DNA from: Symbiodinium sp. CCMP2592 | Lineage: Eukaryota > Sar > Dinophyceae > Suessiales > Symbiodiniaceae | Length of the DNA: 64,000 nt | Assembly (NCBI GenBank): GCA_905221615.1 | Contig: CAJNDT010005913.1 | Coordinates: forward strand, 1,488,001 to 1,552,000 | Reading direction: 5' to 3' | Part shown: positions 30,395 to 56,581 of the stretch, piece after piece | How positions within the stretch are numbered: the first letter of the stretch is position 1 | Layout of the letters: every line of letters begins with the position of its first letter | The notes under the pieces: model-generated | The model's database searches: none | Told to the model about the DNA's origin: nothing | Seen by the model: only the letters and a program-made list of their open reading frames with translations | Translations under genes and position numbers: made by a program

Positions 30395-30424
30395 GTCTGA
30401 CACCTTCTACAAGTGATATTTGGC

Positions 30425-30474
30425 GCACCAAGGCACCCATCATCCCTGTGTGGGGATGATGAGTTCCTGTGTGC
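30425..30474. repeat. Intergenic palindrome family copy A
   Basis: A 50-base imperfect inverted repeat with 22-base arms (about 18 of 22 positions complementary) that begins GCACCAAGGCACCC and ends TTCCTGTGTGC. It sits between two convergent genes, 30 bases after the exoribonuclease stop and 19 bases past the lipoprotein stop. There is no T-run on either strand. Confidence 0.8.
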
Positions 30475-30493
30475 TTGCGTGTTTGTGAAATGC

Positions 30494-30805
30494 TCAGTAG
30501 CCGTTGACATGTGTCGGGCGGAGTTGTGTTGGGCTATTGAGTCGTGTTTGTCCTGAGAGGTGGGCGTCGTAGCCGTGGACATGGTTTGGGGAGAAGACTC
30601 CGGACATTGAGCCTGAGTTTGTTGATCCGGCTGATGTTCGATAGCCGTGCACATGGTTCGGGGAGAAGACCTTCTGCGGCGTGCTTGAGAGCTGGTTGGA
30701 CTGGGTGGATTCGCATCCGATCATCGTGGTGGAGAGTAGTCCGAAGATGCCGAAGGATGCGTACAGAACGATCGCGCGTTGACCATTGAGTTTCTTGTTT
30801 TTCAT
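30494..30805 (-). CDS. Small lipoprotein with NHVHGY repeats
   Basis: A 103-residue exported protein with an AAAGGA ribosome site. The N terminus is a lipoprotein signal (hydrophobic segment, then TTMIGC with lipidation expected at the cysteine). The mature part has two FSPNHVHGY units and a final variant RPTHVNGY, separated by Ser/Thr-rich spacers. I recognise no family. The gene lies 88 bases downstream of the ECF sigma gene on the same strand, so it is probably transcribed with it. The His-containing repeats might bind metal or act as a surface ligand, but this is speculation. Confidence 0.75.
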   Translation of the reverse strand: MKNKKLNGQRAIVLYASFGIFGLLSTTMIGCESTQSNQLSSTPQKVFSPNHVHGYRTSAGSTNSGSMSGVFSPNHVHGYDAHLSGQTRLNSPTQLRPTHVNGY

Positions 30806-30893
30806 AACAGGTTCCTTTCGAGAGCGACTTCCTGCATCTTCTCACACGGAGAGATCGCTCGATACAGATATAGAGAACCTCGATGCGGATTGG

Positions 30894-31625
30894 TTACAGC
30901 ATTCTTTCAGTTTTTTGCTCGGTCTTGAGGCGAGACAGCACTGTGTGCACGATCGAGTCGCATTGGTGACCAGCGAAGGAGAAGCGTTCGATGAGCTGAT
31001 CGTCTGATGCGTTCCGCATGATCCGCTCGAAACTCTTCTTTGCGCGATGCAGCTGGACTTTGACATTGGAGTCGCTGATCTGGAGGCACTCGGCGGTTTC
31101 CTGCGTTGAGAGTCCCTCGACGAGTCTGAGCATGAGCACAGAGCGATGCATGGGCTGGAGCTGATCGAAGGCTTCGCAGACCAGGAGCTTAGTATCGGGA
31201 TTCAGCGTGTCTTCCTGAGTGGTGCTCCGGCTCAAGACCGATCGGACTCGGCTCAGCGAGGGGAGGTGTCTTGTGCGGACGGATTGCGCTCGCTTTCGGC
31301 GCAGTGCTTCGTGGTAGGTGATGCGGGTGATCCAGGTTGAGAATCGGGCGCGACCCTCGAAGCTACGGAGCGACGCGAACGCGTTCATGTACGCTTCCTG
31401 GACGACATCTTCGGCTTCGGTGTCGTCCTTGACGACAGCTCTGGCAACTCGGAAGAGACGCTGGTTGTAGCGTCGCATCAGTCGCTCGAAGGCGGCGGGG
31501 TCATTCTCGAGGATCGCCTGGATGACCTGCTCGTCTGATTCTTCGGGTGGTGCATCTTGCAATACGCTGGGAGCGATGTTTATCGCGAGCGTGGAAGGTT
31601 TTCTGGTTGCGTGCTGTGTAAGCAT
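30894..31625 (-). CDS. ECF-type RNA polymerase sigma factor
   Basis: A 243-residue sigma-70 family protein. The start at 31625 (MLTQHATRKPS) has GAGGGA six bases upstream; the frame stays open further upstream, but that part overlaps the palindrome copy and the neighbouring gene. Region 2 has FERLMRRYNQRLFRVARAVV and the DAEDVVQEAYMNAF helix, and region 4 has LQPMHRSVLMLRLVEGLSTQETAECL. A ~35-residue C-terminal extension contains HQCDSIVH. An N-terminal ~40-residue stretch precedes region 2. No anti-sigma factor is adjacent; the downstream gene is a small repeat lipoprotein. It may control the secreted-protein genes around it, but no target promoter was found. Confidence 0.92.
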   Translation of the reverse strand: MLTQHATRKPSTLAINIAPSVLQDAPPEESDEQVIQAILENDPAAFERLMRRYNQRLFRVARAVVKDDTEAEDVVQEAYMNAFASLRSFEGRARFSTWITRITYHEALRRKRAQSVRTRHLPSLSRVRSVLSRSTTQEDTLNPDTKLLVCEAFDQLQPMHRSVLMLRLVEGLSTQETAECLQISDSNVKVQLHRAKKSFERIMRNASDDQLIERFSFAGHQCDSIVHTVLSRLKTEQKTERML

Positions 31626-31722
31626 AGAGGTCCCTCGATATCGGCCCTGATTGACCGCGGCCCTCTTGCTTGAGGGAACAGCGCATCGGGTTTCAATATT
31701 CCGAGACTTAGTGAGATTGAGC

Positions 31723-31772
31723 GCACCAAGGCACTCATCATCCCCCCACAGGGATGATGAGTGCCTGTGTGC
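31723..31772. repeat. Intergenic palindrome family copy B
   Basis: 50 bases with the same start (GCACCAAGGCACTC) and end (GCCTGTGTGC) as copy A; the core arms are CATCATCCCC/GGGATGATG. It lies within a few bases of the stop codon of the dockerin gene at 31777-32574 (minus strand), between that gene and the sigma factor. Confidence 0.8.
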
Positions 31773-31776
31773 TTGG

Positions 31777-32574
31777 TTATTCGCATCCCATGCCGTAGAG
31801 GTCGAGGAACTTGGAGACATCGAGGAAGTTGAGGTTGCCGTCTTCGTTGAGATCTCCGGGACAAGGCTCGATTGGGTTGGGGTCTTCTCCGATGCGTGCT
31901 TCGTAATCGAGGTGGCGTCCAGACTCAACGAGGGCTGGATTGAAGGGCAAGAAACCCCACCTAGCTTCTCCTGATCTGTAGGTGTTTCCAGTCCAATTGA
32001 TCTCAATCATGTAGGGACGTTCGTCAGTGCGGACGAGGTAGTATGCGTTTGGATCTGATGGGAGGTTTGGAATCGCGTCCGTGAATGCTGGGCCGTCGAG
32101 CGATGTGAGGGAGAACGAGAGCTCTCCGAACTCGTTGGTTCCGAACAAACCGTTGGGAGAGATATTGACTAGGTAGACGCTTAAGTCCCAGTGACCAGTA
32201 AAGGGATCTCTGGTCATCTGCAGCTCAGGGGGAATACCTCCGCTGCTTGTGAAGACTTCCTTGGTCAGGATTAGATCTGGGGCTTCGCTCGGTCGGTAGA
32301 TCGGGTTCTCCAGCGTATTGGCGGCGTTGAGCTCGACGGTGATCTCCTCGATCGGGAAGATCGCGAGGTCTTGGAACACCTGTCCGGGTTCTCCGGCATT
32401 GAGCAGGACCTTGACATTCACCATCGTGAATCTGAATCCGGGTTCCGGGATTGGCTCGGGTTCAGACGCAGCGTTGAACTCCAGCTCGATATACGGCTGC
32501 GCGATGGCAACAGTGCATGCGATCGATGTCGTGATGATGGCGAAGAGTGCGAGTATGAATGTGTGTTGCTTCAT
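31777..32574 (-). CDS. Secreted YIELEF-family protein with one dockerin-like repeat (paralog 1)
   Basis: A 265-residue exported protein with AAAGGA ribosome site and a signal peptide ending AIAQ. The mature protein opens with PYIELEFNAA, a start shared with the gene at 32590 and similar to those at 41455 and 54817. The two neighbours share long matching stretches (LPSDPNAYY, GTNEF). The C terminus is a single dockerin-like repeat, PCPGDLNEDGNLNFLDVSKFLDLYG, ending GMGCE. It is probably a beta-rich extracellular protein of unknown function. It is 15 bases downstream of its closest paralog, so they probably form a tandem duplication and one transcript. Confidence 0.82.
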   Translation of the reverse strand: MKQHTFILALFAIITTSIACTVAIAQPYIELEFNAASEPEPIPEPGFRFTMVNVKVLLNAGEPGQVFQDLAIFPIEEITVELNAANTLENPIYRPSEAPDLILTKEVFTSSGGIPPELQMTRDPFTGHWDLSVYLVNISPNGLFGTNEFGELSFSLTSLDGPAFTDAIPNLPSDPNAYYLVRTDERPYMIEINWTGNTYRSGEARWGFLPFNPALVESGRHLDYEARIGEDPNPIEPCPGDLNEDGNLNFLDVSKFLDLYGMGCE

Positions 32575-32589
32575 GATGTGGTCCTTTGC

Positions 32590-33375
32590 TTACTCGCATC
32601 CCATGCTGTAGAGATCGAGGAACTTGGAGACATCGAGAAAGTTAAGGTTGCCGTCTTCGTTGAGATCTCCGGGACATGACTCGCTTTTGTTGGTTCTTTC
32701 ACCGATGCGTGATTCGAGACCGATCCACTTCCCGTTGTCGCTTGGTGAACCTGGGTTTGGGTTGTTGAGGTTGTAGATCCAGTGTGCGTTTCCAAAGTGG
32801 GTGGATCCTGACCAGTTCATGGTGATGCCGTAGAAACTGGATGGGTCGCGTGCTGGGTAGTACGCGTTTGGATCTGATGGGAGGTTTGGGAGCGCGTTGT
32901 TGATCGCGACTGGATCGATGGTGGGCATGCTGATCGTGACATCGGTGAACTCGTTGGTGCCGAAGATTCCGGTTGCGGAGATGTTTGTGAGGAAGATCGA
33001 GAAGTCCCAGTATCCGGTGCTGGGGTCCTCGAAGAGGATGAGCTCAGGTGGGAAGAAATCTGAGTCCGAGTCCGATTTGGTGAGTGTGAGCATCGGCGCG
33101 GTGCGTGCGAAGAAGCGTTTGCCTTCGATGTCGCTGCTCTGATCGAGTTCGATGGTGATCTCTTCGACATCGAAGATTCCTACACCTCCAGAGACATCCC
33201 CCACTTGCGCCGTATCGAGCAGCAGTGTCACGCGGATGGTCCTGAACTCGTAATCCGGCGACGGCGAACGATCAGTCGCGGCGTTGAACTCCAGCTCGAT
33301 ATACGGCTGGGCGGATGCGACAAGATTCATACACGCAATCGCAAAGATTGCGATTGCTAGAAGTACAGATTTCAT
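32590..33375 (-). CDS. Secreted YIELEF-family protein with one dockerin-like repeat (paralog 2)
   Basis: A 261-residue exported protein with GAGGGAG ribosome site and signal peptide ending ASAQ. The body is a clear paralog of the 31777-32574 product (same opening PYIELEFNAA, same IFDVEEITIEL-type strand, same LPSDPNAYY). The tail is a single dockerin-like repeat with the same DLNEDGNLNFLDVSKFLDLY core, ending SMGCE. The identical tail next to a more diverged body suggests recent gene conversion or strong constraint on the tail. Function is unknown. Confidence 0.82.
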   Translation of the reverse strand: MKSVLLAIAIFAIACMNLVASAQPYIELEFNAATDRSPSPDYEFRTIRVTLLLDTAQVGDVSGGVGIFDVEEITIELDQSSDIEGKRFFARTAPMLTLTKSDSDSDFFPPELILFEDPSTGYWDFSIFLTNISATGIFGTNEFTDVTISMPTIDPVAINNALPNLPSDPNAYYPARDPSSFYGITMNWSGSTHFGNAHWIYNLNNPNPGSPSDNGKWIGLESRIGERTNKSESCPGDLNEDGNLNFLDVSKFLDLYSMGCE

Positions 33376-33463
33376 GCTGATGGATCTCCCTCACGGATGT
33401 GAATTCTCTTAGCAAACTGTACCTGAATTCCATGGATGTCACAAGCAAAATTCGACCACACAC

Positions 33464-33513
33464 GCACCAAGGCACTCATCATCCCTGAGGGGGGATGATG
33501 AGTTCCTGTGTGC
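33464..33513. repeat. Intergenic palindrome family copy C
   Basis: 50 bases, GCACCAAGGCACTC...TTCCTGTGTGC, with arms CATCATCCC/GGGATGATG. It lies ~40 bases after the stop of the S74-type gene (33555-35456, minus strand) and upstream of the 32590-33375 gene. Confidence 0.8.
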
Positions 33514-33554
33514 TTGGTTCTTGGATCGATTGATGGTTGATCGAATGATCGGGG

Positions 33555-35456
33555 TTAGTTCTCGATCAGGTAGCGGACCATTTGCTTGAGCTGCTCGAGT
33601 TCGGATCGGAGCTGGTCGTTCTCGGCTTGCAGTTCTTGGATGTGCTTGGCGTTCTCGCTGCGGAGTTCTTGGATCGCTCCGACGACGAGGGCTTCGAATC
33701 CGGTTTGGTCGAGGTAGAGGTAGCCGTCGTCTGCGGTGTGGACCCACTGTGGGATGACCTGCTGGACTTCTTGTGCGATGAATCCTTGCTGGATGCCCTT
33801 TGCGTAGGAGAAGTGGTCTTTGTTGGTGTATTCGAAGTTCACTGGGCGGAGCGCGGTGAGTGTTTCGAGGGAGCCTTGCATCGGGGTGATGTTTTTCTTG
33901 AGGCGTTGATCGGAGAAGACTGACCAGCTCCCGCCTCCGGTTTTGGCGGCTGATCCTGAGACGGCAAGCTCAAAGCTATGAGCGGATGCTGTACCGATCG
34001 AGATTTGATTGTCAACTGTGACCGTTCCAGCACTTGACACGATCAAGGCGAAGTTGCCATCCCCTTTGTCCACACGGAATGGGGTCTGCGTTGCTGAGCC
34101 GCGTACATGGAGCTTCGCGTTTGGAGTGCTGTCACCCACACCAAGATCATTCACGATGTAGACATCACCGGCGGCTGCGGAGCCGGTGTCTCCGAGCGTG
34201 ATACCGCCGCTTGATGAAATGTGCATGCGTCGTGTGCCGTTGGTCAAGACCTCGAGGGGGACTCGTCCTGATTCGGCGTTGACGTGGAGTTTGGCGCTTG
34301 GTTCGTTTTCTCCGACTCCGAGGTTGTTGACGACATAGGTGTCTCCCGCGGGGACGATGGTGGAGTTCCCTCCGAGTGAGACACCGCCGTTGGCGTTGAC
34401 GCGGATGCGTGTGAGTCCGTCGTGCTGGACGCGGAAGGCGGACTCACCGGCGGGTGCGTTGATGTGGATCTCGTCGGTTGGTGAGGTGGTGCCTACCCCG
34501 ACGCGTCCTTCGAAGTAGTTTCTTCCGCCTTCGAAGTATCCTGCGTATCCCGAGGCGCTGTTGGTGGATCCTTGGATTGCGTAGTTGGTTCCGGAGTTTG
34601 CGTATGCGTATGCGCGGAGTCCGGTGCCTGTAGTGGAGTGTGTTTCGAACAAACCGCCGATGCTGTTGCCTGAGGGTGCAGTTGCTTGACCGAAGATCCC
34701 GATGCCTTCGGACTTTGTGGATTGTCCACGGATCCCGGTACCAAAGAGACTGAGTGCGTAGATCGCGGTTTCATCGTTGAGCGATGCTCGTACAAAGAGC
34801 GGGTTGTTTGGTTCGTCCCACCCGATCCCGACATACCCGTCTGTGTAATAGGTTCGTGTCCCTGATCGATCCCAATGTGAATCACCTGCGGGCCCTTGGT
34901 TTCCTTGTGGTCCTTGCGGGCCTTCAGGACCTTGCGGACCTTCTGGTCCTTCGGGGCCTTCGGGGCCTTGTGCGCCGTCGGCGCCGTCTTGACCGTCTTG
35001 TCCTGGTTCACCTTGTTCGCCTTGTGGGCCCTGGTCGCCTTGGGGTCCTTGTGGGCCTTGGGGTCCTTCGTTGCCTGTGAGTGCGAACTGGGCGACTGGT
35101 GTTGCGTTGACACGTTGGTTCGGTGAGAGGGTGACGAATGATCCGCCGTCGTCTACGGAGCGGACAGCGAATTCGAGGAAACGTTCTGAACCATCGAAGG
35201 CGGAGGGGCCGAAGTCGAGATCGAGCGTGAAGGTACCCTCGCTGACGACGACGTTGGCGAACTCGGTGGATCCGATTTGTGTCCCGATGTCGTCGAGGAG
35301 TCTGATCTGGAACTCGTAGATGCCGTCGGCGAGTTGTCCGTCGTTGACGAGGTGTCCCTGGTAGGTGAATGTGGTGGGTGTCGCGTGGGCTGGTGTGGTG
35401 GTGATGAACGACGAAGCCGCGATGATCGCGGCGGCGGTGATTGAACGGATCGACAT
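33555..35456 (-). CDS. Secreted collagen-like protein with peptidase S74 (endosialidase chaperone) domain
   Basis: A 633-residue exported protein with ribosome site AGAGAGGGA. A signal peptide is followed by an N-terminal domain ([21 protein letters not shown]), also found in the genes at 35658 and 50204. Residues ~128-191 are about 21 Gly-X-Y triplets (GPQGPQGPQ and GPEGPEG type), a collagen-like triple helix. Then come beta-rich repeats with [21 protein letters not shown] units. The C terminus has the S74 chaperone ([12 protein letters not shown], near residue 517, and [15 protein letters not shown]), which drives trimerisation and self-cleavage in phage tail fibres, then a coiled coil. It is probably a trimeric surface fibre. 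Confidence 0.87.
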
Positions 35457-35572
35457 GTCGGGGGTCCCTCTCTCTGGATTTTGGAACGAATGAGCCGGAT
35501 TCTAACGCGGTTTGGGATGCTCAGCAAGAGAATAGTCTGAGTCTCAGGGTGGGAAAATTCCCGATACATGGC

Positions 35573-35633
35573 GCACCAAGGTACTCATCATCACCTGTTT
35601 GTAAAGACGGGGGGATGATGAGTTCCTGTGTGC
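35573..35633. repeat. Intergenic palindrome family copy D (long loop)
   Basis: 61 bases, same ends as copies A-C (GCACCAAGGTACTC...TTCCTGTGTGC) but with a longer loop containing GTTTGTAAAGACGG. It lies 25 bases after the stop of the 35658-37157 gene (minus strand). The loop resembles that of copy E. Confidence 0.78.
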
Positions 35634-35657
35634 TTGTTTGGATGACGAACGGATGGA

Positions 35658-37157
35658 TCAGTCGCGGGATTGGAGCTGTTGCTCGCGTTGCATCTCGCGT
35701 TTGATCTCTTCCATCATTTCGCGCATCTCGTTGAGTTCGCGTTGTTGGCGCTCGTTGTCGGCTTGGAGGGCGGCGTTCTGCTCTGCGAGGATGTCGTAGG
35801 CGTTCATTGGAGGTGCGGACTGGGTGTACTCATCCGGGATGTTGGGTTCTGCGTTGAGTGCGAGAAAGCCGTAGGAGGTTGGGATGTAGATCGCGGAGAC
35901 TTGTCGATCGAAGACGGTGAAGGTCGCGTTTCCGGTGGAGTTGTCGTCTCCGAGGAAGTAGAAGGTGTTGGGGCCTGCTGAGACTGGGAGGATTGCGTGG
36001 GAGGTGATGGGGTAGTCGTACTGGCCGGTGGGTGCACTGCTTGGGATTCTGATTTCGAGGTCGGTATTGACTTCAAAGGAATCAGTGGAATCTGACACTC
36101 CTAGCACACCTGAGGTGGTGAAGCCGGTGACGTGATCGACTTCGACTTCGGCGGTGGCAATAACGAGGGCGAATCCGTCTGCGGGGGCGTTGATCGTGAC
36201 GGAGTTGATCGTATCGATTGTAACGGCGTCATCAGTGAGGTTGACAGTTACAGCGCCGACGGTTTCCGCGGCACCCACCTCGTTGAGGAGTTCGGTGCTG
36301 CTGATCGCGTTGCTTGGGAGAACGACGCTCTCGTTGTCGACTTGACCGGGTTCGAGGAGGATGGTACCTGCGGTTCCGAACATAGCCATCCGTGGGGACT
36401 CTGTTCCGAAGTAGTTCCCATCGAGGAATATGCCGGTGGACCCGTTATCGTTTCTCGATAATGACACGAATCCGCCTCCACCTACCGAGGTGTCTCTTTC
36501 AGCGGCGAAGAACAGGTTTCCATTTAGGCCGTAAAGTTCGAGGAATGAGTCTCCTCCGAAGTTATCGAATCCCAATCTCACACGATCATCACCGAGGTTT
36601 GTGCGCATGTTGATGACTGGGGACTGGGCTGGGGTTGCGACGAGATTGAGCGGGCCGAAGGTGTCTTGGAAGAGGATGGTGTTGTCGTTGCGGTACGCGT
36701 CGTTGAGGGTTGTTCCTGAGTCCTCGGCGTAGTTTGCGGATTCTGCGTGTCCGGCGCGAAGGGCGTAGTTGGCGAGTGTTGCGGGGACGAGCTTCTGACG
36801 CGGCGCGAGGATGGTGGTTCCGGGTTGTCCCGCTTCGGAGACGCGGAGCTCGAGCCAATGGGTTTGGTTGATGTCAAAGAGCTGTCCGGAGACTCCGAAG
36901 CCAACCTCGCACGAGAACAAGCCGTCGACGACTTCGACATTGAAGACGGTTGTGAATCCGTCTGCTGGGACTCCCCCACCGACCTCGGCGTCGTAGATGA
37001 AGAAGGAGATGTCGTATAGGCCGTTGGCGGGTGCGCCGTTGTCGTTGAGTGTTCCTTGGTAGACGAAGGAATCGTTGATGGGCTGAGCGCGTGTAGTGGT
37101 TGCGGCGATGGACGAAACCGCGATGATCGCGGCGGCGGTGCATGAACGGATCGACAT
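35658..37157 (-). CDS. Secreted tail-fibre-like protein with C-terminal coiled coil (paralog of 50204)
   Basis: A 499-residue exported protein. After the signal peptide it has the shared N-terminal domain (FVYQGTLNDNGAPANGLYD, then LAPRQKLVPATLANYALRAG). The middle is beta-rich, and a C-terminal section (YDYPITSHAIL, SAIYIPTSYG) matches the 50204 gene. The end is a ~40-residue coiled coil (LAEQNAALQADNERQQRELNEM...). It lacks the S74 domain and collagen repeats of its upstream neighbour. An oligomeric surface structure is the likely role; no enzyme motif is seen. The ribosome site is weak (GAGAGA). Confidence 0.83.
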   Translation of the reverse strand: MSIRSCTAAAIIAVSSIAATTTRAQPINDSFVYQGTLNDNGAPANGLYDISFFIYDAEVGGGVPADGFTTVFNVEVVDGLFSCEVGFGVSGQLFDINQTHWLELRVSEAGQPGTTILAPRQKLVPATLANYALRAGHAESANYAEDSGTTLNDAYRNDNTILFQDTFGPLNLVATPAQSPVINMRTNLGDDRVRLGFDNFGGDSFLELYGLNGNLFFAAERDTSVGGGGFVSLSRNDNGSTGIFLDGNYFGTESPRMAMFGTAGTILLEPGQVDNESVVLPSNAISSTELLNEVGAAETVGAVTVNLTDDAVTIDTINSVTINAPADGFALVIATAEVEVDHVTGFTTSGVLGVSDSTDSFEVNTDLEIRIPSSAPTGQYDYPITSHAILPVSAGPNTFYFLGDDNSTGNATFTVFDRQVSAIYIPTSYGFLALNAEPNIPDEYTQSAPPMNAYDILAEQNAALQADNERQQRELNEMREMMEEIKREMQREQQLQSRD

Positions 37158-37329
37158 GGTTGGGTTCTCTCTCTTGTTCTCTGTACAAATGAACGAATGA
37201 GCGGGATTCTAACGCGGATTGGTGTGCACAGCAAGGAGAAATCGCTTGATCTATCGCGCTGAGGGGGTTTAAGAGACGCTGTGCATTGGATCCAGGTCTG
37301 CACTACACTGGTCGCTCAAGGAGAACACG

Positions 37330-38805
37330 ATGTCCGACTTTGACGCGTCTACTGGATCTACAGAAAGCTCTGCGGAGCATCATCCTGAACATCGAACTGG
37401 GAATCAGGTCCCGCTGATCCAGAAGATCGCGTTTGGCATGGGGATGCTTGGGAATCAGATGTTCCCGGCGGCGCTGGGGATCTTCATGGTTGTGCTGGTG
37501 CAGGGGCTTGGGATGAGTCCGCTGTTGTGGGGGATCTTGTTCTTCCTCCCTCGTCTGTCTGATGCGCTGACTGATCCGGTGATGGGGTTCGTGTCGGATA
37601 ACACGCGTTCGCGTTGGGGGCGTCGTCGGCCGTACATCTTTATTGGGTCGATCATCGCGGGCGTCGCGTACATCTTTATGTGGCAGCTCGATCCTGAGAA
37701 GAGCGAGATGTACAACTTCACCTACTTCTTGCTCATGGCGTTTGTGTTCTATCTCGGACTCACGATCTTTGCGACCCCCTATGTCGCGATGGGGTACGAG
37801 ATGTGCGAGGACTTCCACGAACGCACACGGCTCATGGCGGTCTCGCAATGGATCGGTCAGTGGGCGTGGGTGATCGTGCCTTGGTTCTGGGTGTTTATTT
37901 ATGACACAGAGATGTATCCGGAAGGACCGGCATCGGGCGCGAAGAACCTCGCGATCTGGGTTGGTGTGGGGTGCATGCTGATGGGGATGGTCCCCGCGAT
38001 CTTCTGTAAGACGCAGCCGGTCGATGAGAGCAAGCTCAAGGACTTGTCGCTTGGGGCGCTGCGTGAGAACTTGTCGCTCGTTGCGAAGGGGTTTGCGCAG
38101 TCGCTGAAGAACAAGCCGTTCGTGCGGATTTGTATCGCGACCTTCTTTGTGTTCAACGCGTTTAACACGGTTGCGGGGATGTCGTTCTTCATCATCGTGC
38201 ACTACATGTTTGGTGGGGTGACTGGTCCGGATGGTTCAGCTACTTGGCCGACCTGGTTTGGGGTGGCGAGTGCATTGGCGACTTGTTTCCTTGTGATCCC
38301 GCTGGTGACGCTGATGTCGCAGAAGCTCGGGAAGAAGATGGCGTTCATCATCTCGCAGGGGGTCTCGATGCTTGGGTACGCGGGGTTCTGGTTCTGCTTT
38401 GTTCCTGGGAGACCTGAGTTGATGTTCATCCCGCTGCCATTGTTCGCGTTCGGGATTGGTGGGTTGTTCACGATCATGATGTCGATGACAGCGGATGTGT
38501 GCGACCTCGATGAACTGAACACGGGCGAACGGCGCGAGGGTGTGTTCGGCGCGGTCTACTGGTGGATGGTCAAGTTCGGATTCGCGATCGCGGGACTGCT
38601 TGGTGGGGTCATCATGGATGTGGTCGGATTCGATCCAGGCGCTTCGTCACAGACGACCGAAGCGATGACCGGGCTGCGGCTCGCGTACTCTGGACTCCCG
38701 ATGCTCGGGACGCTCATCGCGATCATCGTGATGCTTGGGTACGACCTTGACGAGCAGCGGAGCTGTGAGATCCGTGAACAGATCGAAGCGCGGAAAGCGG
38801 CGTGA
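37330..38805 (+). CDS. GPH/MFS-family sugar:cation symporter-like transporter
   Basis: A 491-residue inner-membrane protein with ~12 hydrophobic segments and a strong ribosome site (AGGAG). The stretch DALTDPVMGFVSDNTRSRWG and the GRRRPYIFIG that follows are the signature of glycoside-pentoside-hexuronide symporters, with the conserved Asp and Arg near the end of helix 2. A second hint is DVCDLDELNTGERREGVFGA later. These carriers bring in sugars with Na+ or H+. No sugar-degrading enzyme gene is next to it, so the substrate is unknown. It is divergent from the 35658 gene and followed 12 bases later by palindrome copy E. Confidence 0.9.
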   Translation: MSDFDASTGSTESSAEHHPEHRTGNQVPLIQKIAFGMGMLGNQMFPAALGIFMVVLVQGLGMSPLLWGILFFLPRLSDALTDPVMGFVSDNTRSRWGRRRPYIFIGSIIAGVAYIFMWQLDPEKSEMYNFTYFLLMAFVFYLGLTIFATPYVAMGYEMCEDFHERTRLMAVSQWIGQWAWVIVPWFWVFIYDTEMYPEGPASGAKNLAIWVGVGCMLMGMVPAIFCKTQPVDESKLKDLSLGALRENLSLVAKGFAQSLKNKPFVRICIATFFVFNAFNTVAGMSFFIIVHYMFGGVTGPDGSATWPTWFGVASALATCFLVIPLVTLMSQKLGKKMAFIISQGVSMLGYAGFWFCFVPGRPELMFIPLPLFAFGIGGLFTIMMSMTADVCDLDELNTGERREGVFGAVYWWMVKFGFAIAGLLGGVIMDVVGFDPGASSQTTEAMTGLRLAYSGLPMLGTLIAIIVMLGYDLDEQRSCEIREQIEARKAA

Positions 38806-38817
38806 TTCCAACTTGGC

Positions 38818-38878
38818 GCACCAAGGCACCCATCATCCCCCGTTTGTACAGACCGAGGGAAGATGAGTTCCTGTGTGC
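38818..38878. repeat. Intergenic palindrome family copy E (long loop)
   Basis: 61 bases, GCACCAAGGCACCC...TTCCTGTGTGC; the loop contains GTTTGTACAGACC, like copy D. It starts 12 bases after the stop of the symporter gene. This copy has the right arm AAGATGAG with one change from the ATCATC core. Confidence 0.78.
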
Positions 38879-39137
38879 TTGGTTGTCTGTGCTGTTGATT
38901 TCTTTCCCCGAATCGGGTGTGATGAACAAAACGCGGCGAGCCTTGCTGTCCCGCGTGTGGGGAGCACTGGGGCAGCGTGACGGCTCGCGCGTTGTGGTCG
39001 CTGATGGGAGGTTTCATCTCGTCGATTGGGCGCAACGAGGACTCACCATCAGCTTCCGGATCGGGTGTTCGATCCGGACCTGAGAGGTTGGGCGACTCTC
39101 GATCGGGTACAGGTCTGCGTCTCAAGCGGATGCTTGA
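38879..39137. other. Intergenic region with no confident gene
   Basis: Short overlapping frames are open here on the + strand. One (38922-39083) would encode a ~53-residue basic peptide starting MNKTRRALLSRVWG, but it has no clear ribosome site and matches nothing I know. It could be a decayed gene or 3' sequence of the symporter transcript. Confidence 0.3.
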
Positions 39138-39605
39138 TCAGGGTCGCGATGATCGGTTCGCTTCGGGGATCTCTTGAGAGAGTCCTGTTTCGATCGCGTA
39201 GCCGAACGCTCTGGAGAACTGTTGGATCGCGCTTCCGGAGACTCTTGGGTTGCGCATGAAGATGATCTCGTCATCGGTGATGCGATGATTGAACCGCAGC
39301 AACACCGAGGTCGCGACTTGCTGGCAGTACTCGCTGCGATCGATCTGCACGATCTTGCTCGGCTGCGCTTGGTTCATCGTGATCTGATCGGAGTCTTGCT
39401 CCATGCGTCCGACGATTGTTGCTCGTGGAGCCGGGGGTTCGGAGGAGAAGATCGGGTTGATCGCTCGTCCTGGAATCAACAAGGCGCTGGAGAACATGAT
39501 CAAGGCGTAGGTCGCGAGCACCCCGATACAGAACATGCCAATGTTGATTCGAATGGACTTCCATGGGAAGGTCCGCTCGGCGGCTGGGCTGCTTTGGGGA
39601 TTCAT
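39138..39605 (-). CDS. Membrane-anchored protein of unknown function
   Basis: A 155-residue protein with ribosome site GAGGAG seven bases before the ATG. One transmembrane segment lies at ~residues 18-42 (INIGMFCIGVLATYALIMFSS), and the rest, probably periplasmic, includes SEYCQQVATSVLLRF and DDEIIFMRNPRVSGS. I recognise no family. Two 13-base direct repeats sit just upstream. Confidence 0.7.
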   Translation of the reverse strand: MNPQSSPAAERTFPWKSIRINIGMFCIGVLATYALIMFSSALLIPGRAINPIFSSEPPAPRATIVGRMEQDSDQITMNQAQPSKIVQIDRSEYCQQVATSVLLRFNHRITDDEIIFMRNPRVSGSAIQQFSRAFGYAIETGLSQEIPEANRSSRP

Positions 39606-39630
39606 AACGTACTCCTCGTCTGTTCTTCAG

Positions 39631-39656
39631 TTGTCAATGACTGTTGTCAATAACCG
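39631..39656 (-). repeat. Two tandem 13-base repeats upstream of 39605
   Basis: TTGTCAATGACTG followed by TTGTCAATAACCG. On the minus strand each unit holds a TTGACA. They sit 26-51 bases upstream of the start of the minus-strand gene, so they may be an operator or overlapping -35 elements. No good -10 was seen at the right distance. Confidence 0.5.
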
Positions 39657-39967
39657 TCCTCGTACTCCTGTTTTCTCTGTATTTACAGCTTCAGATGCAG
39701 CATGACACGGATTCGACCAAAAGCGACGAATCGGCATGCTGATCGCTTGAGTTATCATGACGCGGCACATCCAGAGCGTGCAGGTTCCCCAGATTTACAC
39801 GATAACTTCAATATCATGCGATCTCAGTACCGGAATGGATATATGAAGGTTTGGGAATGCTCAGGGAATCGCGCTGGAAGTCTCTTGTGGAAGAATCGCC
39901 GTGATGTTAGAATGGGCGTATATATCGGATTCTCCCAGACATCGCTTAGGAATGAATCGAGGACTCC
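39657..39967 (+). promoter_or_regulatory. Intergenic region with candidate promoter for 39968
   Basis: There is no confident gene in the 311 bases. A sigma-70-like pair is visible: TTGTGG at 39885-39890, 17-base spacer, TAGAAT at 39908-39913, 54 bases before the ATG at 39968. The rest is fairly AT-rich. Confidence 0.5.
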
Positions 39968-41308
39968 ATGATACAGACCCGCATTCACAGACTTCGATAC
40001 GCAGCAGCGATCCTATCGTTGTTTGGATCACACCAAGCTTGGGCACAGATCACGACAGAGTCGGACACGCTGGCACCATCGGACGGGTCAAACTGGAGCT
40101 CGTTCAATAGCGATCTGCTTGCGATGGACGGCTCGTTCGCTGTCATCAAGAGCGGGTACTTGTTTGATGTCACCACTGGTCAACAGATCATTCGGTTGGT
40201 TCCCGAGGCGGATCCGATCGCGGGGTTTGGTTCATCTGTTGCGATCGATGGGGATCTAGTCGTCGTCGGGAACATCTTTGATGATGGGAAGGGGTTCCCA
40301 GAGCAAGACGCGGGAGCGGTCTATCTGTTCGACCACACCACAAGACAAGAAATCAATAAACTCGTCGCGGATGATCGCTCAAGACTCGATCGCTTCGGGA
40401 GTTCGGTCGGTATCAGCGGAAATCTGATTGTGGTTGGATCGCCTCTCAACGATGCGATCGTTCCAAACTCTGGAGCGGCGTATGTCTTTGACGCGACGAC
40501 CGGTCAGCAGCTGCACAAGCTCGTTCCCGATGATGGATCGCTCGGAGACCAGTTCGGAGATCGCGTAGCGATCAGCGGGAGCACGATCCTTGTTGGGGTT
40601 CCCCAAGACGATGACAACGGCGGGAGTTCTGGTTCGGTCTATGTGTTTGATGCGATCACTGGTCAGCAGTTGCACAAGCTTGTCCCTGCAGATGGGAGTA
40701 CTTCGGATCTCTTTGGTCGATCGGTCGCTCTCGATGGGAACATCGCTGTGATCGGTGCACACCTTGATGATGACAACGGACTGGAGTCGGGTGCTGTGTA
40801 TGTGTATGACACAACCACAGGACAGATGCTCCGCAAGCTGCTCGCTGAGGATGGAGAAGCGGACGACCAGTTCGGATTCGCGGTGTCGATCGATGGAACT
40901 CAAGCCGTAATCGGTGCTCAGAAGGACACAGCTGATGGTGTGCGTTCTGGATCAGCGTATGTGTTTGATGTCAACACTGGTCAGCAGCTCATGAAGCTCC
41001 AAGCGAGTGATGGATCCGCGAACGATTTCTTTGGTTCAGCGGTCGCGATCAGCGACTCGAATATGCTGGTGGGATCGCCGGATGCGGCGCGGAGCGACGG
41101 CGGGATCGGATCGGTCTATGTGTTCTCATTGGGAAGCTCATGCGCTCCGGACCTCACTGGAGAGGGCGACCTGAACTTCCTCGATGTCTCCGCGTTTCTC
41201 AGTGCATTCGGGATGCAGGACCCCATCGCGGACTTCGTGTACGACGGCAACTTCAACTTCTTCGATGTCTCCGAGTTCCTCGCGCAGTTCTCGGCGGGAT
41301 GTCCGTAA
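39968..41308 (+). CDS. Secreted FG-GAP-type beta-propeller protein with dockerin tail
   Basis: A 446-residue exported protein with signal peptide ending AWAQ. The body is built of about seven ~50-residue repeats with the core FGxSVAIDGDLVVVG and then SGSVYVFDxxTGQQLxKL, an FG-GAP-like beta-propeller pattern. The C terminus has two dockerin-like repeats (DLNFLDVSAFLSAFG and NFNFFDVSEFLAQFS) ending in SAGCP. Extracellular location is expected. Such propellers often mediate binding; no catalytic motif is visible. A candidate promoter lies upstream. Confidence 0.85.
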   Translation: MIQTRIHRLRYAAAILSLFGSHQAWAQITTESDTLAPSDGSNWSSFNSDLLAMDGSFAVIKSGYLFDVTTGQQIIRLVPEADPIAGFGSSVAIDGDLVVVGNIFDDGKGFPEQDAGAVYLFDHTTRQEINKLVADDRSRLDRFGSSVGISGNLIVVGSPLNDAIVPNSGAAYVFDATTGQQLHKLVPDDGSLGDQFGDRVAISGSTILVGVPQDDDNGGSSGSVYVFDAITGQQLHKLVPADGSTSDLFGRSVALDGNIAVIGAHLDDDNGLESGAVYVYDTTTGQMLRKLLAEDGEADDQFGFAVSIDGTQAVIGAQKDTADGVRSGSAYVFDVNTGQQLMKLQASDGSANDFFGSAVAISDSNMLVGSPDAARSDGGIGSVYVFSLGSSCAPDLTGEGDLNFLDVSAFLSAFGMQDPIADFVYDGNFNFFDVSEFLAQFSAGCP

Positions 41309-41388
41309 GGACTCGTTGTGTCTGCTCAACTCTTGGTTGTTTGCATCCCTCCGCAATGGTGGGCTGGGGGAGATCTGCGTAATTACCC

Positions 41389-41417
41389 TTGGAGTTCTGC
41401 GAGAGTATCGCTATATT
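41389..41417 (+). promoter_or_regulatory. Candidate promoter for the 41455 gene
   Basis: TTGGAG (41389-41394), 17-base spacer, TATATT (41412-41417); the -10 matches five of six consensus bases. It would give a 5' leader of about 30 bases containing the AAGGGAG ribosome site. Confidence 0.5.
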
Positions 41418-41454
41418 GGGATTTTCTGTTTGTCACTCTAAGGGAGATCTCGCC

Positions 41455-42123
41455 ATGCTGATTCGTTCAACTGTTCTCGCGGCTGTTGCCGTACTTGGTT
41501 TTGCTGCTTCTGTTGTTTCTGCGCAGAACTACATCCGGGTGGATGTGGTTGGTGTCGTTACCGCCGGTGATTCTTTCACGGCGAACATCGATTTCAGTGT
41601 TGTCTTGGATACGACGGCCGGTCCTACAGACAGCTCAGAAGGCACTATCTCCTTCGATGTGCTCAATGCACGCGCGGTTGATCCCGCAACACACACGAGC
41701 GACTCACCGATGTACCTGAGCGAACCGCCCGCGCCGATTCCCGTCACAGGGACTTTCAGGTACATCATTTTCACCGATGAGTATAACATCCAGCTCAACA
41801 CGCCCAGCGGGTCCATTTTACTCGGCGTGACCCCCCCTCGCGGCGAGTTCAGCCTCTCGATGACCTCGCTCCCCGATGACCCCGCGGATTACCTGGTCGA
41901 TTCAACGGACAGCGGTGCGACGGTCGGCTTAATCGGCCCCTCTGGGGACACCAGATGGAATCCGGGTTTTCCTACTGGTGACGATGGCGGGTTCCGCGTG
42001 ATTGTTCGGAGTGTCGATGATCCGAGTCTTGATGAATGCGAAGCCGACTTCACCGGCGACGGGAACCTCAACTTCCTCGATGTCTCCGCGTTCCTCACAC
42101 TGTTCTCGGCGGGATGTCCGTAA
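41455..42123 (+). CDS. Secreted protein with one dockerin-like repeat (YIELEF-like group)
   Basis: A 222-residue exported protein; the start at 41455 has AAGGGAG eight bases upstream. The signal peptide ends VVSAQ and the mature protein opens with NYIRVDVVGVV, like a diverged YIELEF paralog. It has the SLTSLPDDPADYLVDS-type strand found in the other members and a single dockerin-like repeat (DFTGDGNLNFLDVSAFLTLFS) ending AGCP. Function is unknown. It follows the propeller gene on the same strand but has its own candidate promoter. Confidence 0.8.
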   Translation: MLIRSTVLAAVAVLGFAASVVSAQNYIRVDVVGVVTAGDSFTANIDFSVVLDTTAGPTDSSEGTISFDVLNARAVDPATHTSDSPMYLSEPPAPIPVTGTFRYIIFTDEYNIQLNTPSGSILLGVTPPRGEFSLSMTSLPDDPADYLVDSTDSGATVGLIGPSGDTRWNPGFPTGDDGGFRVIVRSVDDPSLDECEADFTGDGNLNFLDVSAFLTLFSAGCP

Positions 42124-42222
42124 GGATTCGTCCCGAGTACTACTCATCATCACGAGAGAGTGACCGGTGTGGATCGCGTACTCCGGACTGAATAGGAAGG
42201 ACCATCGTACTGACGGATCCCA

Positions 42223-42432
42223 TCAGGTTCCCAAAAAGTACCACACAACGAACGCGGCGATCGCGACTCCGAGAATCGCGGGGAGGATGCGGAGGACGAT
42301 GTAGAACTTCCACATCGTGGTCCCTCGTTTGAGAACGCCTTTGAGTTCCATCACGCGTGCGACGCCGTTGGCGACGATCAAGAGGAACATCAATCCGAAC
42401 ACAATGAACAAGGCACTTCTGCTGATTTCCAT
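42223..42432 (-). CDS. Small membrane protein, possibly leaderless
   Basis: A 69-residue protein starting MEISRSALFIVFG, with two hydrophobic segments (ALFIVFGLMFLLIVAN and ILPAILGVAIAAFVVWYFLG). No ribosome site precedes the ATG, but a TATACT hexamer ends six bases before it, which would place the transcription start at the ATG itself. A frame extended to 42465 is unlikely. No family is recognised. It is isolated, convergent with the 41455 gene. Confidence 0.55.
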   Translation of the reverse strand: MEISRSALFIVFGLMFLLIVANGVARVMELKGVLKRGTTMWKFYIVLRILPAILGVAIAAFVVWYFLGT

Positions 42433-42533
42433 GCGGAGAGTATAACAGGAATGCGTACACCGCATCGATATGCGACTTGGTTAGAAATACAAGTTCTGTC
42501 CCACTCGGTATATGAACAGCTGCGATACGCGGG

Positions 42534-42608
42534 TTTTGTGCGCACAGATGTGCAGCGTTTTGCTCGCGTGCTCCTGAGATTCAAATTGAATTTCCTACCT
42601 CTATAGAC
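42534..42608 (+). repeat. Leader block copy 1 (TTTTGTGCGCACA...CTATAGAC)
   Basis: About 75 bases, roughly 75% identical by eye to 43871-43947. It opens with TTTTGTGCGCACA and keeps TGCTCGCG, AGATTC and a TACCT-CTATAG-like end in order. It lies 142 bases upstream of the ATG at 42750. The 42433-42749 gap also contains a C/A-rich stretch (CCCCCCACCCAACACCC...) without a gene. Confidence 0.65.
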
Positions 42609-42749
42609 AACCCCCCACCCAACACCCTCCCCACTCCTCAACATAACACACCCCCAAAAAGACCCATTCTTACAACATTCACACAACTCGCTCACATACC
42701 ACCACTCCAATCTATTACCTTCTGAGTACTCATTATGAAAGGAGAATCA

Positions 42750-43757
42750 ATGAGACTTAGGAATATCACATCATCCATTATTCACACATCCGTTCTTTCA
42801 CTCGCGATCGCATCGAGCGCCTCGGCGCAGTGCGGCTCGTACTGTCTCGCGGATCAGAACCAGGACGGCGTCGTTGACGCGGCCGACTTCACCGCGTGGA
42901 TCAACAACTTCAACAACAATGATCCGCTCGCGGATGTCAATCAGAACGGCGTCCTCGATGCCGGGGATTACACCGCGTGGGTTGCGCAGTTCAATCTCGG
43001 TCCCAACGGCGACTGCTGTCCGGGTCCGATCTACATGATCACCCCATGCGCCGGCGGTTCGCCCATCTTCACCAAGAACGACCTCTCCAGCTGCGAGGGC
43101 AGCTACGCGGAGTACAACTCCAACGAGATTGGGTTCGTCTCGATCTTCCCAGGAGAGCTGGATTCCTCGCAGCTCACAGCCGTGAATCTGATCGGATGCG
43201 TCAGCGACTGCGGCACACCGAACGATCCCGACGACGATCCGGACATCGATCCAGGAGGCGTGCTCGAATCGAGTATTGTCGTGACCTTCTCCAGTACCTG
43301 CGAGCCAAACAATGAAGATTGCGATGGTCTTCCGGAGTCGTACTTTGACACGCCGGATGAAACTGTTGCTATTCGCTTCTTCCGGAACGGGTATGAAGGT
43401 GGTGACACACGTAAACCATTATGGGATGCAGACTACAATGGCCAAACCATCACAATCGTCTACCGAGGAAATCGAACAGATCTAGCTGGGTGGGAGAGAT
43501 GGCGTATCAATAACGCGTCGCACGCGTATCCACAGATCAGTTGCTCGGGAGTATGTGTGACACTCTTCGACGGGCACGATCAGTTCCCCAGCAACCCACC
43601 ATACATGCCTCCAACTCTAGTCGTTGATTGCGCCCTCACACCCCCATTTCCGTTTGACCCTGTTTTGTACGCTGTTCTTGAATGGCAGATTTTTTCAGAC
43701 TTCAACGGCTTTGAACAAGCAACTTCATATAACAAGTTTGAGTGTCTGATCCCGTAA
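42750..43757 (+). CDS. Secreted protein with N-terminal dockerin-like domain
   Basis: A 335-residue exported protein; the start at 42750 follows AAGGAG. After a signal peptide (SSASAQ) it has two EF-hand-like repeats at residues ~33-80 (DQNQDGVVDAADFTAWINNF and DVNQNGVLDAGDYTAWVAQF). Here the dockerin-like domain is at the N terminus and uses the DAxDFTAW form rather than the LNFLDVS form of the other proteins in the window. The rest is a Cys-rich domain of unknown fold with many Pro/Asp residues (about 10 cysteines). It is followed by a strong terminator. Confidence 0.8.
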   Translation: MRLRNITSSIIHTSVLSLAIASSASAQCGSYCLADQNQDGVVDAADFTAWINNFNNNDPLADVNQNGVLDAGDYTAWVAQFNLGPNGDCCPGPIYMITPCAGGSPIFTKNDLSSCEGSYAEYNSNEIGFVSIFPGELDSSQLTAVNLIGCVSDCGTPNDPDDDPDIDPGGVLESSIVVTFSSTCEPNNEDCDGLPESYFDTPDETVAIRFFRNGYEGGDTRKPLWDADYNGQTITIVYRGNRTDLAGWERWRINNASHAYPQISCSGVCVTLFDGHDQFPSNPPYMPPTLVVDCALTPPFPFDPVLYAVLEWQIFSDFNGFEQATSYNKFECLIP

Positions 43758-43790
43758 CATATTCTCATCTTGAGTCCAGTATTGAACCAC

Positions 43791-43814
43791 AAGCCGGGAC
43801 ACCCCGGCTTTTTT
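43791..43814 (+). terminator. Intrinsic terminator after 42750 gene
   Basis: 8-bp stem AAGCCGGG/CCCGGCTT with loop ACAC, followed by four more Ts (six in all). Confidence 0.88.
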
Positions 43815-43825
43815 CATGCGCCAAA

Positions 43826-43859
43826 GACTACGCGTAGTCGACGAGTAGTCGACGAGTCG
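43826..43859. repeat. Palindrome and 11-base tandem repeat
   Basis: GACTACGCGTAGTC (43826-43839) is a 14-base perfect palindrome. It runs into GTAGTCGACGA repeated at 43834-43844 and 43845-43855, plus a partial third unit. It lies just before leader block copy 2. It may be a protein-binding or plasmid-iteron-like site; no function is shown. Confidence 0.55.
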
Positions 43860-43870
43860 GGATACACCAC

Positions 43871-43947
43871 TTTTGTGCGCACAAATCTGCGGCGAATTGC
43901 TCGCGCGAATCTCAGATTCCAAAATTAATTTCATACCTATATAGGCG
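43871..43947 (+). repeat. Leader block copy 2
   Basis: Homologous to 42534-42608. It opens with a 14-base palindrome TTTGTGCGCACAAA (43872-43885) and ends ACCTATATAGGC. A third short match, TTTGTGCGCAC, is at 43989-43999. The block lies 121 bases upstream of the AAA ATPase start. The whole 43758-44068 gap holds only these signals. Confidence 0.65.
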
Positions 43948-44068
43948 ACCACCCCCGCCGCTGCTGTTTTGAGCTCCGAGTGACCGGGTTTGTGCGCACG
44001 GATGTGTCCGCGCGGTCCATCTGGTAGGCGCGTCGTGGGGACGCGCGCGAGTGCAATAGGAGATGGAT

Positions 44069-45367: not shown

Positions 45368-45397
45368 CAAACCCTCCCACTCCCGCTTGTCATCCTT
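45360..45397 (+). other. Hairpin at the end of the AAA ATPase gene
   Basis: Arms AAGGTTGACAA (45360-45370) and TTGTCATCCTT (45387-45397), 10 of 11 positions complementary. It overlaps the stop codon and is followed by GGGTTTTG. It could be a weak terminator. Confidence 0.5.
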
Positions 45398-45440
45398 GGG
45401 TTTTGAGAGAGATAGAGGGGGTAGAGAGTGTGTACGAATG

Positions 45441-45480
45441 CAAGGATGACAAACCCCTGGGTGGGGGTTTGTCATCCTTG
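45441..45480 (+). other. Perfect 17-bp hairpin downstream of the AAA ATPase gene
   Basis: Left arm CAAGGATGACAAACCCC (45441-45457), loop TGGGTG, right arm GGGGTTTGTCATCCTTG (45464-45480). The right arm repeats the motif TTGTCATCCTTGGG already present at 45387-45400. There is no T-run, so it is either a stem-loop stabilising the transcript or a recombination remnant. Confidence 0.7.
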
Positions 45481-45506
45481 GGACGGTTGGGCGTGGTGAT
45501 TTGGAA

Positions 45507-45606
45507 GGGTGGCGTGGAGGTGTTGTCTTCAACTCCTCCACGATTCTTGGATTGGAGTGCGATTCAAAGACATGCAGGAGCCGAAGACGGCACCTGCATG
45601 CCACCC
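45507..45606. repeat. 100-bp palindromic element, copy 1
   Basis: It opens GGGTGGCGTGGAGGTG and ends CACCTGCATGCCACCC. The two halves are imperfect inverted repeats of ~35-40 bases (GTCTTCAACTCCTCCACG on the left matches the complement of CATGCAGGAGCCGAAGAC on the right). A second copy is at 56582-56679. This looks like a REP- or MITE-like non-coding mobile element with no transposase in the window. Confidence 0.75.
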
Positions 45607-45624
45607 GCCATTGGTGAGTAAGAA

Positions 45625-46317: not shown

Positions 46318-46333
46318 AAACAAAATGCTCCCA

Positions 46334-46903: not shown

Positions 46904-47059
46904 GTGAAACCTTTCTGCTTACCAGCGACTTTCCCCTCCTTCTATACTAGGCATCTATTCGGTATCCCTCCCCCCCTCATAACCCCTCCCCAATCCTTGA
47001 CATCCACCCTCTTCTCGCCTTCAATCCTCTCCCCTTGGGCATCGTGCCCGGGCCAAGCC

Positions 47060-47146
47060 GTCGGACCGAAGTCTCGGCCAACCGACATGGTCGCTACTCC
47101 CAAGTAGCACCGCAGAGGAAACTGGTTGAAAGCCAGCCCACTGCGG
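47060..47146 (+). promoter_or_regulatory. Structured leader upstream of rpsD
   Basis: Two hairpins lie before the rpsD ribosome site: GTCGG (47060-47064) with CCGAC (47082-47086), containing an inner CCGA/TCGG pair, and CCGCAG (47110-47115) with CTGCGG (47141-47146), containing CTGG/CCAG around TTGAAAG. Ribosomal protein S4 often represses its own operon by binding a leader. No known riboswitch consensus was matched. Confidence 0.5.
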
Positions 47147-47166
47147 ACGGAAGAAAGGAAGCCGCT

Positions 47167-47766: not shown

Positions 47767-47854
47767 CCCCCCCAAAGTTTGGAACACGCGATGCGGGATG
47801 CCTCTGGCAAGCCTTTGCAACGCGAACCAAGGCTTTGGAGACCATGCAAATCAT

Positions 47855-47889
47855 GCGAATCCTCGGCCAACGCCGGGGATTTGCTTTTT
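47855..47889 (+). terminator. Intrinsic terminator after rpsD
   Basis: 13-bp stem GCGAATCCTCGGC/GCCGGGGATTTGC with two G-T wobbles, loop CAAC, then TTTTT. It lies ~90 bases after the rpsD stop. Confidence 0.75.
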
Positions 47890-47962
47890 GATCGTTCGTA
47901 TGATCGACCAACGCGTTCAATGCTTGGACGCGACCCAACTGCACAGATAGCACGGAGCCGAC

Positions 47963-56568: not shown

Positions 56569-56581
56569 CTCAAGCAGACCC

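Follow-up and report, generated by a model that had tools for sequence, protein, structure and literature searches.

Why should one short palindrome recur behind stop codon after stop codon in a single stretch of a bacterial chromosome? The question is raised by a 64,000-nucleotide window from an assembly of Symbiodinium sp. CCMP2592 (the window, below, is this whole analysed stretch). The contig is bacterial, and the chromosome that carries the palindromes is planctomycete-like. Here we describe the extent of the palindrome family, its placement and pairing, and its presence and absence among relatives, and weigh what kind of element it is.

Copies and extent of the family

A first-pass annotation of the sequence had described five palindromes with common ends, the last two of which share a longer loop. 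All five (A to E) start GCACCAAGG and finish CTGTGTGC, and D and E do have the longer loop in common. The five copies are confirmed as genuine and well above chance, with nine matches to the 5' arm pattern in the window at up to three mismatches (five first arms and four second arms), compared to 0.03 expected from 100 dinucleotide shuffles. Three further claims, that the copies adjoin stop codons, fill nearly every gap and lack a T-run, also held. Each copy lies close behind a stop codon (Table 1), and from 30395 to 39137 just one of the six gaps that reach 60 bp is free of them, a divergent promoter gap (37158-37329). A scan gave no terminator-like site with a T-run at any of A to E; when the 10 bases after each copy were read on the plus strand, six were T. 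The predicted folds of the five copies range from -27 to -41 kcal/mol.

The original list was correct in its five entries, but incomplete, as four diverged copies lie further to the right and the limits of the array had not been given. The wider family thus comprises nine copies in 25 kb, within a domain of gene turnover. Some genes of the array region are paralogues or have common start regions; those of the collagen/S74 and 499-aa genes are approximately 82% alike.

Table 1. Palindromes of the array and the domain that contains them (window coordinates)
Feature	Position	Strand	Context
Gene-turnover domain	30395..57740	.	G001-collinear blocks (90-97% identity) interrupted by blocks found in only one genome of G000/G001
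Copy A	30425..30474	+	30 bp past stop of YhaM-like HD gene (29282-30394, +; YhaM model scored below its cut-off)
Copy B	31723..31772	+	4 bp past stop of gene 31777-32574 (-)
Copy C	33464..33513	+	41 bp past stop of collagen/S74 gene 33555-35456 (-)
Copy D, long loop	35573..35633	+	24 bp past stop of 499-aa gene 35658-37157 (-)
Copy E, long loop	38818..38878	+	12 bp past stop of MFS gene 37330-38805 (+)
Diverged palindrome	45441..45480	+	73 bp past stop of AAA_25 ATPase gene 44063-45367 (+)
Diverged palindrome, second subfamily	51697..51750	-	14 bp past stop of 492-aa gene 50204-51682 (+)
Diverged palindrome, second subfamily	54605..54660	-	304 bp from nearest counted 3' end
Diverged palindrome	55583..55625	-	43 bp past stop of gene 54784-55539 (+)

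On its own contig the family is confined to this region. No member was found in the flanking 200 kb, all six exact matches of a two-arm pattern on the contig fall inside the gene-turnover domain, and a search for the strict form returned these five copies only. Of 50 loci from a scan of the genome contigs, three were judged by eye to have the hairpin and 47 the first arm only; a one-mismatch match (C5051:926897) was rejected as a family member, there being no hairpin at that place. Recovery of the nine window copies by pattern R2 is by construction, because the pattern was derived from a chosen set of 34 hairpins (A4), and the R1 and R2 genome searches were scored for part of their candidates. 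A plain hairpin scan missed A and E, both below its threshold. An Rfam search of the window at gathering scores found two tRNAs only; the palindromes match no described RNA family.

Placement at gene ends and pairing of the arms

With hand-picked gene models, seven of the nine copies lie within 45 bp of a gene 3' end, as against 1.81 expected (P 0.0002), and eight lie within 75 bp, as against 2.92 expected. One hairpin in each of two relatives, G135 and G145, is found just 3' of tRNA-Arg. Under automatic gene models, stops flank both sides at seven of 37 hairpin places, and in G002 and G003 there are hairpins between two gene starts. In G001 and G002, the 54605-position hairpin is flanked by the MeaB orthologue and the next gene, which start divergently on either side of it (in G001, by MeaB orthology).

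The arms covary. Within A4, in which strands were set mostly by the G-rich loop, double changes occur in 21 of 25 stem pairs and in 133 cells, compared to 41.6 in shuffles, counts to be read with kinship in mind, as related sequences can top shuffles without structure; on one covariation measure, further pair types, the observed value was reached by 29 of 500 shuffles. The 692 pair cells comprise 632 Watson-Crick, 6 G.T, 8 A.C and 46 other pairs, so that G.T is no commoner than A.C. Because the Watson-Crick covariation comes without a preference for wobble pairs, it points to arm pairing that is kept at the DNA level or required in both strands, rather than in one RNA strand. Copies outside A4 are the D-position copy of G002, the 54605- and 45441-position copies of G001, and the 55583-position and broken 54605 copies of G003.

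At least one loop in the family is flipped: reverse-complementing the loop of B gives exactly the loop of the D-position copy in G002, and the arms of the two copies run the same way. The D site has a short loop in G002 and a long one, like that of E, in the window's own genome (G000). Inside a single genome, the outer arms resemble one another clearly in G145 (0.89), modestly in G135 (0.68) and weakly in G000 (0.55, versus 0.52 to G135). Among three pairs of hairpins at matching positions, like outer arms are kept in one (DUF1643; 0.875).

These observations bear on whether the palindromes act in RNA, as terminators or mRNA stabilisers that work on both strands and travel with accessory genes, a reading that we consider possible, but unlikely. 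Its strengths are the stable folds of A to E and the location of copies directly behind stops and a tRNA 3' end. In addition, G135 and G145 agree in the positions of hairpins that follow DUF1643, HhH-GPD and tRNA-Arg, which looks like retention for function rather than free movement. A need for pairing in two strands would also disfavour G.U pairs; however, only seven of the 37 places have stops on both sides, and still G.U pairs are no more frequent than A.C ones. The missing T-runs, the copies between two gene starts and the absence of detected copies from the surrounding 200 kb, where genes end too, likewise speak against it. Intrinsic terminators that lack a U-tract resemble A to E in having a stable hairpin 4-41 bp past the stop, but the array is region-confined, its sequence is common to unrelated genes, and it has no wobble preference. 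The 3'-end mRNA stabiliser that the first-pass annotation listed as a candidate is possible, although the lack of a G.U-over-A.C preference disfavours selection on a single RNA strand.

Presence and absence among relatives

The same kind of hairpin occurs in five other studied genomes (G001, G002, G003, G135 and G145), and a sample of 400 genomes from the order gave eight with a match. R2 gave candidate matches in G136, G142 and G146, as well as at C43, C105 and C303 of G002, three places that may lie elsewhere. The G002 and G003 assemblies are fragmented, and so their copies cannot be assigned to one array. In G001 the hairpin search gave 23 places, with six forward ones among the matches listed. 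Mapping G135 onto the window by tblastx gave too much noise for use in the comparison.

Comparison with relatives for empty sites, a check put forward with the original description, showed one: G003 has a hairpin, but no accompanying gene, behind a stop codon where G000 is empty. The G003 stretch is approximately 90 bp long and includes the hairpin, which has 90% identity to the 51697 copy, and no target-site duplication was seen at this one site. The pair supports mobility; we infer an insertion in G003, the alternative being loss in G000 and G001. Copy E is not present after the same MFS gene in G001 and G002, and the 3' arm of the 54605-position hairpin is broken in G003. G000 and G002 carry a block of gene plus hairpin (54660-55637) that G001 lacks; gene and hairpin are found in G003 too.

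Such present-or-absent blocks, in an array limited to one region with gene turnover, would also be expected of an integron-like cassette array that has lost its recombinase or uses an unrecognised one, and whose exchanged unit is gene plus hairpin. In its integrase-less, sedentary form, boundary hairpins would let these units be gained, lost or flipped via extruded single-stranded hairpins, acted on by a putative recombination agent. We regard this as doubtful. Breakpoints at hairpins appeared decisive at first look, but were weak against an intergenic null. With that null and hand-picked gene models, the comparison with G001 places six of 14 block ends no more than 20 bp from a hairpin (2.34 expected, P 0.018), but the counts are three of 14 at 10 bp (1.9 expected, P 0.29), six of 14 at 40 bp (3.1 expected, P 0.067) and, when both edges of the shared 54605 hairpin are left out, four of 12 at 20 bp (2.0 expected, P 0.12). 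Blocks without such hairpins differ between genomes as well. The attC sites of integrons have an R-box with a conserved GTT triplet; no conserved GTT box of this kind is present in the 34 hairpins. In G001, G003 and G145, five Xer-like proteins score 109-126 bits with the integron integrase model TIGR02249 (cut-off 265); one of them just passes NF040815 (220.3, cut-off 220), a XerA model with integron integrase also named in its description. The nearest tyrosine recombinase match on the array's own contig is approximately 49 kb away, and searches near the array gave no integron integrase. We therefore rejected integron membership, for want of a nearby integrase and the attC GTT, and retained the analogy: like attC sites and CALINs, these are sequence-varied, pairing-conserved hairpins between genes in one variable region, but they have neither a nearby integron integrase nor a conserved R-box triplet, and the palindromes are near-perfect.

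It is improbable that the palindromes are binding sites for a protein that organises part of the chromosome, for example where replication forks meet. GC skew switches from plus to minus in or beside the array in G000, G001, G135 and G145, and the weaker of two dnaA matches (0.295 Mb) is approximately 0.24 Mb from the point opposite the array, but the stronger (2.503 Mb) is approximately 0.5 Mb from it, the skew is patchy, with an origin-type switch just 62 kb or so away in G000, and the arms vary freely while pairing holds. A dif-motif search of 264 kb, using a motif known from other phyla, was empty. The array position shared by G000 and G145 is partly inherited, because the two are syntenic over some of the left flank. 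A replication terminus was rejected on the skew, the dif search and this inheritance. Plain segmental duplication of a gene block, which the first-pass annotation tied to finding only these copies in one duplicated block, is very improbable: the strict form does number these five only, and some genes of the region are paralogous or share starts, but the genes before A to E are mostly unrelated and diverged copies occur in five other genomes, which argues that the array did not arise in this way.

A possible local relative of REP palindromes

REP elements, as portrayed in PMC3733652, are short intergenic palindromes, often near gene 3' ends, with Planctomycetes among their hosts; the same source names GTAG-23 of T. 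roseum, clustered at few loci, as an exception. The array agrees with REPs in its intergenic position close to gene 3' ends, and its clustering is as in GTAG-23. Most REP families, however, are high-copy and genome-wide, whereas here approximately nine copies lie in one 25-kb region, and the GTAG/CGTC tags are not conserved: by raw count, 29 of 36 copies, including all of A to E, have neither GTAG/CTAC nor CGTC/GACG in the 12 bp next to the edge, and seven have one. A search for Y1_Tnp (RAYT) gave no match in G001, G002, G003 or G135 and three in G145, all off the array's contig. On the window's own contig the matches are of one sequence kind with an in-frame TAG, at two places among the matches listed, more than 1.3 Mb from the array; no RAYT gene was found near it. 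Membership in the RAYT/REP system was thus rejected on copy number, tag and transposase. Of the candidates first proposed, a REP/MITE-like element that prefers gene ends remains the best fit, helped by the site filled in G003 and empty in G000, but it is not a typical REP, being confined to one region, with no RAYT near and its tags mostly absent. The palindromes resemble bacterial REPs in an unusual, local form, with a symmetry that appears to be kept in DNA and not in RNA.

We tentatively favor, as a whole, non-autonomous REP-like palindromes of approximately 40-60 bp that spread locally in one gene-turnover domain of some Phycisphaerales; no transposase or source gene for them was identified. 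On this locally spreading reading, short palindromes would multiply inside one chromosomal domain (25 kb here), with fresh copies landing in intergenic DNA, mostly right behind the ends of transcription units, where they would do least harm. Copies at gene ends may block read-through from either side, which would be their effect on transcripts. The simplest route to maintained arm pairing would be template switching across the hairpin during replication, an idea drawn by analogy from the work on other genes described in PMC8794818; it could produce the paired changes and also flip the loop. Copying between palindrome sites may account for the likeness of copies inside one genome.

Palindromes at gene ends are usually taken as terminators or as REPs moved by RAYTs, and here a similar family occupies one domain with no nearby RAYT. 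If confirmed, it would offer a natural test of whether compensatory hairpin changes arise from DNA template switching or from RNA selection, and a test case for the way in which gene turnover comes to settle in one chromosomal domain of a bacterium.

The palindrome array and its position relative to genes

All five palindromes of the first-pass annotation (copies A-E) are present where they were first described and stand far above chance, and every copy gives a stable hairpin fold (-27 to -41 kcal/mol). A covariance model made from these five (R1) added three diverged copies in a search of the window, and a plain hairpin scan, the cut of which excludes A and E, added a fourth at 45441, giving an array of nine copies in 25 kb. 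The scan returned 11 strong hairpins in the window, versus 1, 2, and 3 in three shuffles.

Palindrome copies and side features of the array region (window positions)
Position	Feature	Detail
30425	Copy A	Preceding gene: HD/YhaM-like protein
31723	Copy B	Preceding gene: protein without Pfam match
33464	Copy C	Preceding gene: collagen/S74 protein
35573	Copy D, long loop	Preceding gene: 499-aa protein without Pfam match
38818	Copy E, long loop	Preceding gene: MFS transporter
45441	Diverged copy	
51697	Diverged copy	R1 match at 51692
54605	Diverged copy	R1 match at 54600
55583	Diverged copy	R1 match at 55576
31777-33375	Adjacent pair of similar genes	Probable tandem duplication; stretches at a spacing of ~810-820 bp match at 74-93%
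34876-35094	Tandem periodicity of nine bases	Inside gene with Pfam collagen match
38938-39140	Leftover 3' part of a gene longer in relative G002 (scan locus L029, 4131-4664)	Place of missing 5' part occupied by copy E and ~60 bp
40000-47500	GC skew passes from plus to minus	Inside array
42500-44060	Repeated stretch around TTTGTGCGCAC (by eye)	Upstream of AAA_25 ATPase gene; may belong to an old integrated element

A second model (R2) was made from 34 hairpins, the nine window copies among them. Over 264 kb, R2 matched these nine copies, all in its training set, and nothing else; 200 kb of flanks hold five hairpins above the cut of a further hairpin scan, none of which was matched by R1 or R2. 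The exact two-arm pattern gave 27 hits, 21 on other contigs and 6 on the window's contig (C5051), all within the array; a backward control of the pattern gave 28.

For seven of the nine copies, the nearest 3' end is no more than 45 bp away; random intergenic placement would give 1.81 such copies (P 0.0002). The 54605 copy is flanked by two gene starts in G002 and, judged by MeaB orthology, also in the relative G001, and one hairpin in a third relative, G003, sits between divergent starts. A tRNA-Arg 3' end is followed by one hairpin copy in each of two further relatives, G135 and G145. Because hairpins occupy 9 of the 18 gaps of at least 60 bp in the surrounding gene-turnover domain (30395-57740), they do not mark every gap. 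The start regions of the collagen/S74 and 499-aa genes are ~82% alike.

Stem pairing, loop inversion, and relatives

Across the 34 hairpins, 92.2% of 692 cells were paired, versus 72.5% in shuffles, double changes occurred at 21 of 25 stem pairs, and shifting the partner by 1-3 columns lowered pairing to 35-51%; a measure of further pair types was equalled in 29 of 500 shuffles. The cells comprise 632 Watson-Crick, 6 G.T, 8 A.C, and 46 other combinations. Selection on one RNA strand is expected to favour G.U above A.C. Here G.U is not spared over A.C; therefore, the pairing is kept in DNA or is required in both strands.

When reverse-complemented, the copy B loop is identical to that at the D position in G002, with the arms in the same orientation, and a passage of PMC8794818 attributes loop inversion of this kind to replication template switching. 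Other loops too are found in both senses, which may simply reflect turning of the whole palindrome. By eye, the G-rich side of a hairpin loop tends to fall on the G-rich strand.

The hairpin was found in 3 of 50 loci of a public genome scan, all three Phycisphaerales or Phycisphaeraceae. Among 163 genomes from the family of G001, R1 matched 5; R2 matched 8 of 400 genomes sampled from the order of G001, a count that includes G001-G003. G145 carries five hairpins in 8 kb, and G135 carries ten in ~16 kb of contig C8 plus four on C75. A whole-genome pattern search of G135 returned 25 forward places, the long hairpins being those on C8 and C75; the remainder look by eye like short chance matches. 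Arm style varies by genome (AGAAGAAG in G145, CAAGTTACT in G135, GCACCAAGGCACT in the window's genome, G000), with mean outer-arm identity of 0.89 inside G145 and 0.68 inside G135, versus 0.50 between them. Inside G000, which has two subfamilies, it is only 0.55.

Change between genomes

G000 and G001 are collinear over 28105-61094 at 90-97% identity, except for blocks found in one only. Of 14 block ends, six have a hairpin within 20 bp (expected 2.34, P 0.018), three within 10 bp (P 0.29), and six within 40 bp (P 0.067); when the two edges formed by the shared hairpin at 54605 are set aside, the 20-bp count is 4 of 12 (P 0.12). An association of block ends with hairpins is suggestive at most. 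At the D site, the loop is short in G002 but long and E-like in G000, and the 54605 copy is broken inside its 3' arm in G003. G003 also has a hairpin in a ~90-bp stretch after the stop of the 56584-57735 orthologue, where G000 has nothing and G001 has ~426 bp of other sequence; across these three genomes, this is either a gain in G003 or a loss in the others.

Chromosomal setting and candidate machinery

C5051 (2,960,029 bp) holds the window at 1488001-1552000 and is part of a 1.1-Gb assembly. The window genes are bacterial, and the named scan loci sharing DNA with it (L013, L029, L040) are from Phycisphaerales or Phycisphaeraceae assemblies. We infer that the window seems to be part of a Phycisphaerales-like bacterial chromosome within an assembly of eukaryotic size. 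A plus-to-minus GC-skew switch lies inside or adjoining the array in G000, G001, G135, and G145; given the patchiness of the skew and the synteny over part of the flank, we draw no conclusion from it. An opposite switch lies ~18 kb left of the window.

Y1_Tnp had no match in G001, G002, G003, or G135, and three in G145, on contigs other than the array's. C5051 has one kind of Y1_Tnp sequence, near both contig ends (contig positions 6799-7140 and 2918276-2918617), with equal scores and an in-frame TAG in each match; these are either two element copies or the terminal overlap of a ~2.91-Mb circular chromosome. The matches listed for C5051 include five to tyrosine recombinases, the nearest of these ~49 kb from the array. 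The two strongest tyrosine recombinases in G001 have XerC and XerD as best models, slightly under those cut-offs; five Xer-like proteins of G001, G003, and G145 scored far below the cut-off of the integron integrase model TIGR02249, and one of these five narrowly passed the XerA model NF040815.

No published description of the palindrome family was found in the literature searched, which was covered mostly at record level and included passages of PMC3733652 and PMC8794818. Overall, we read the array as a locally confined, REP-like palindrome family, situated mostly at gene ends and most likely spread and repaired as DNA.
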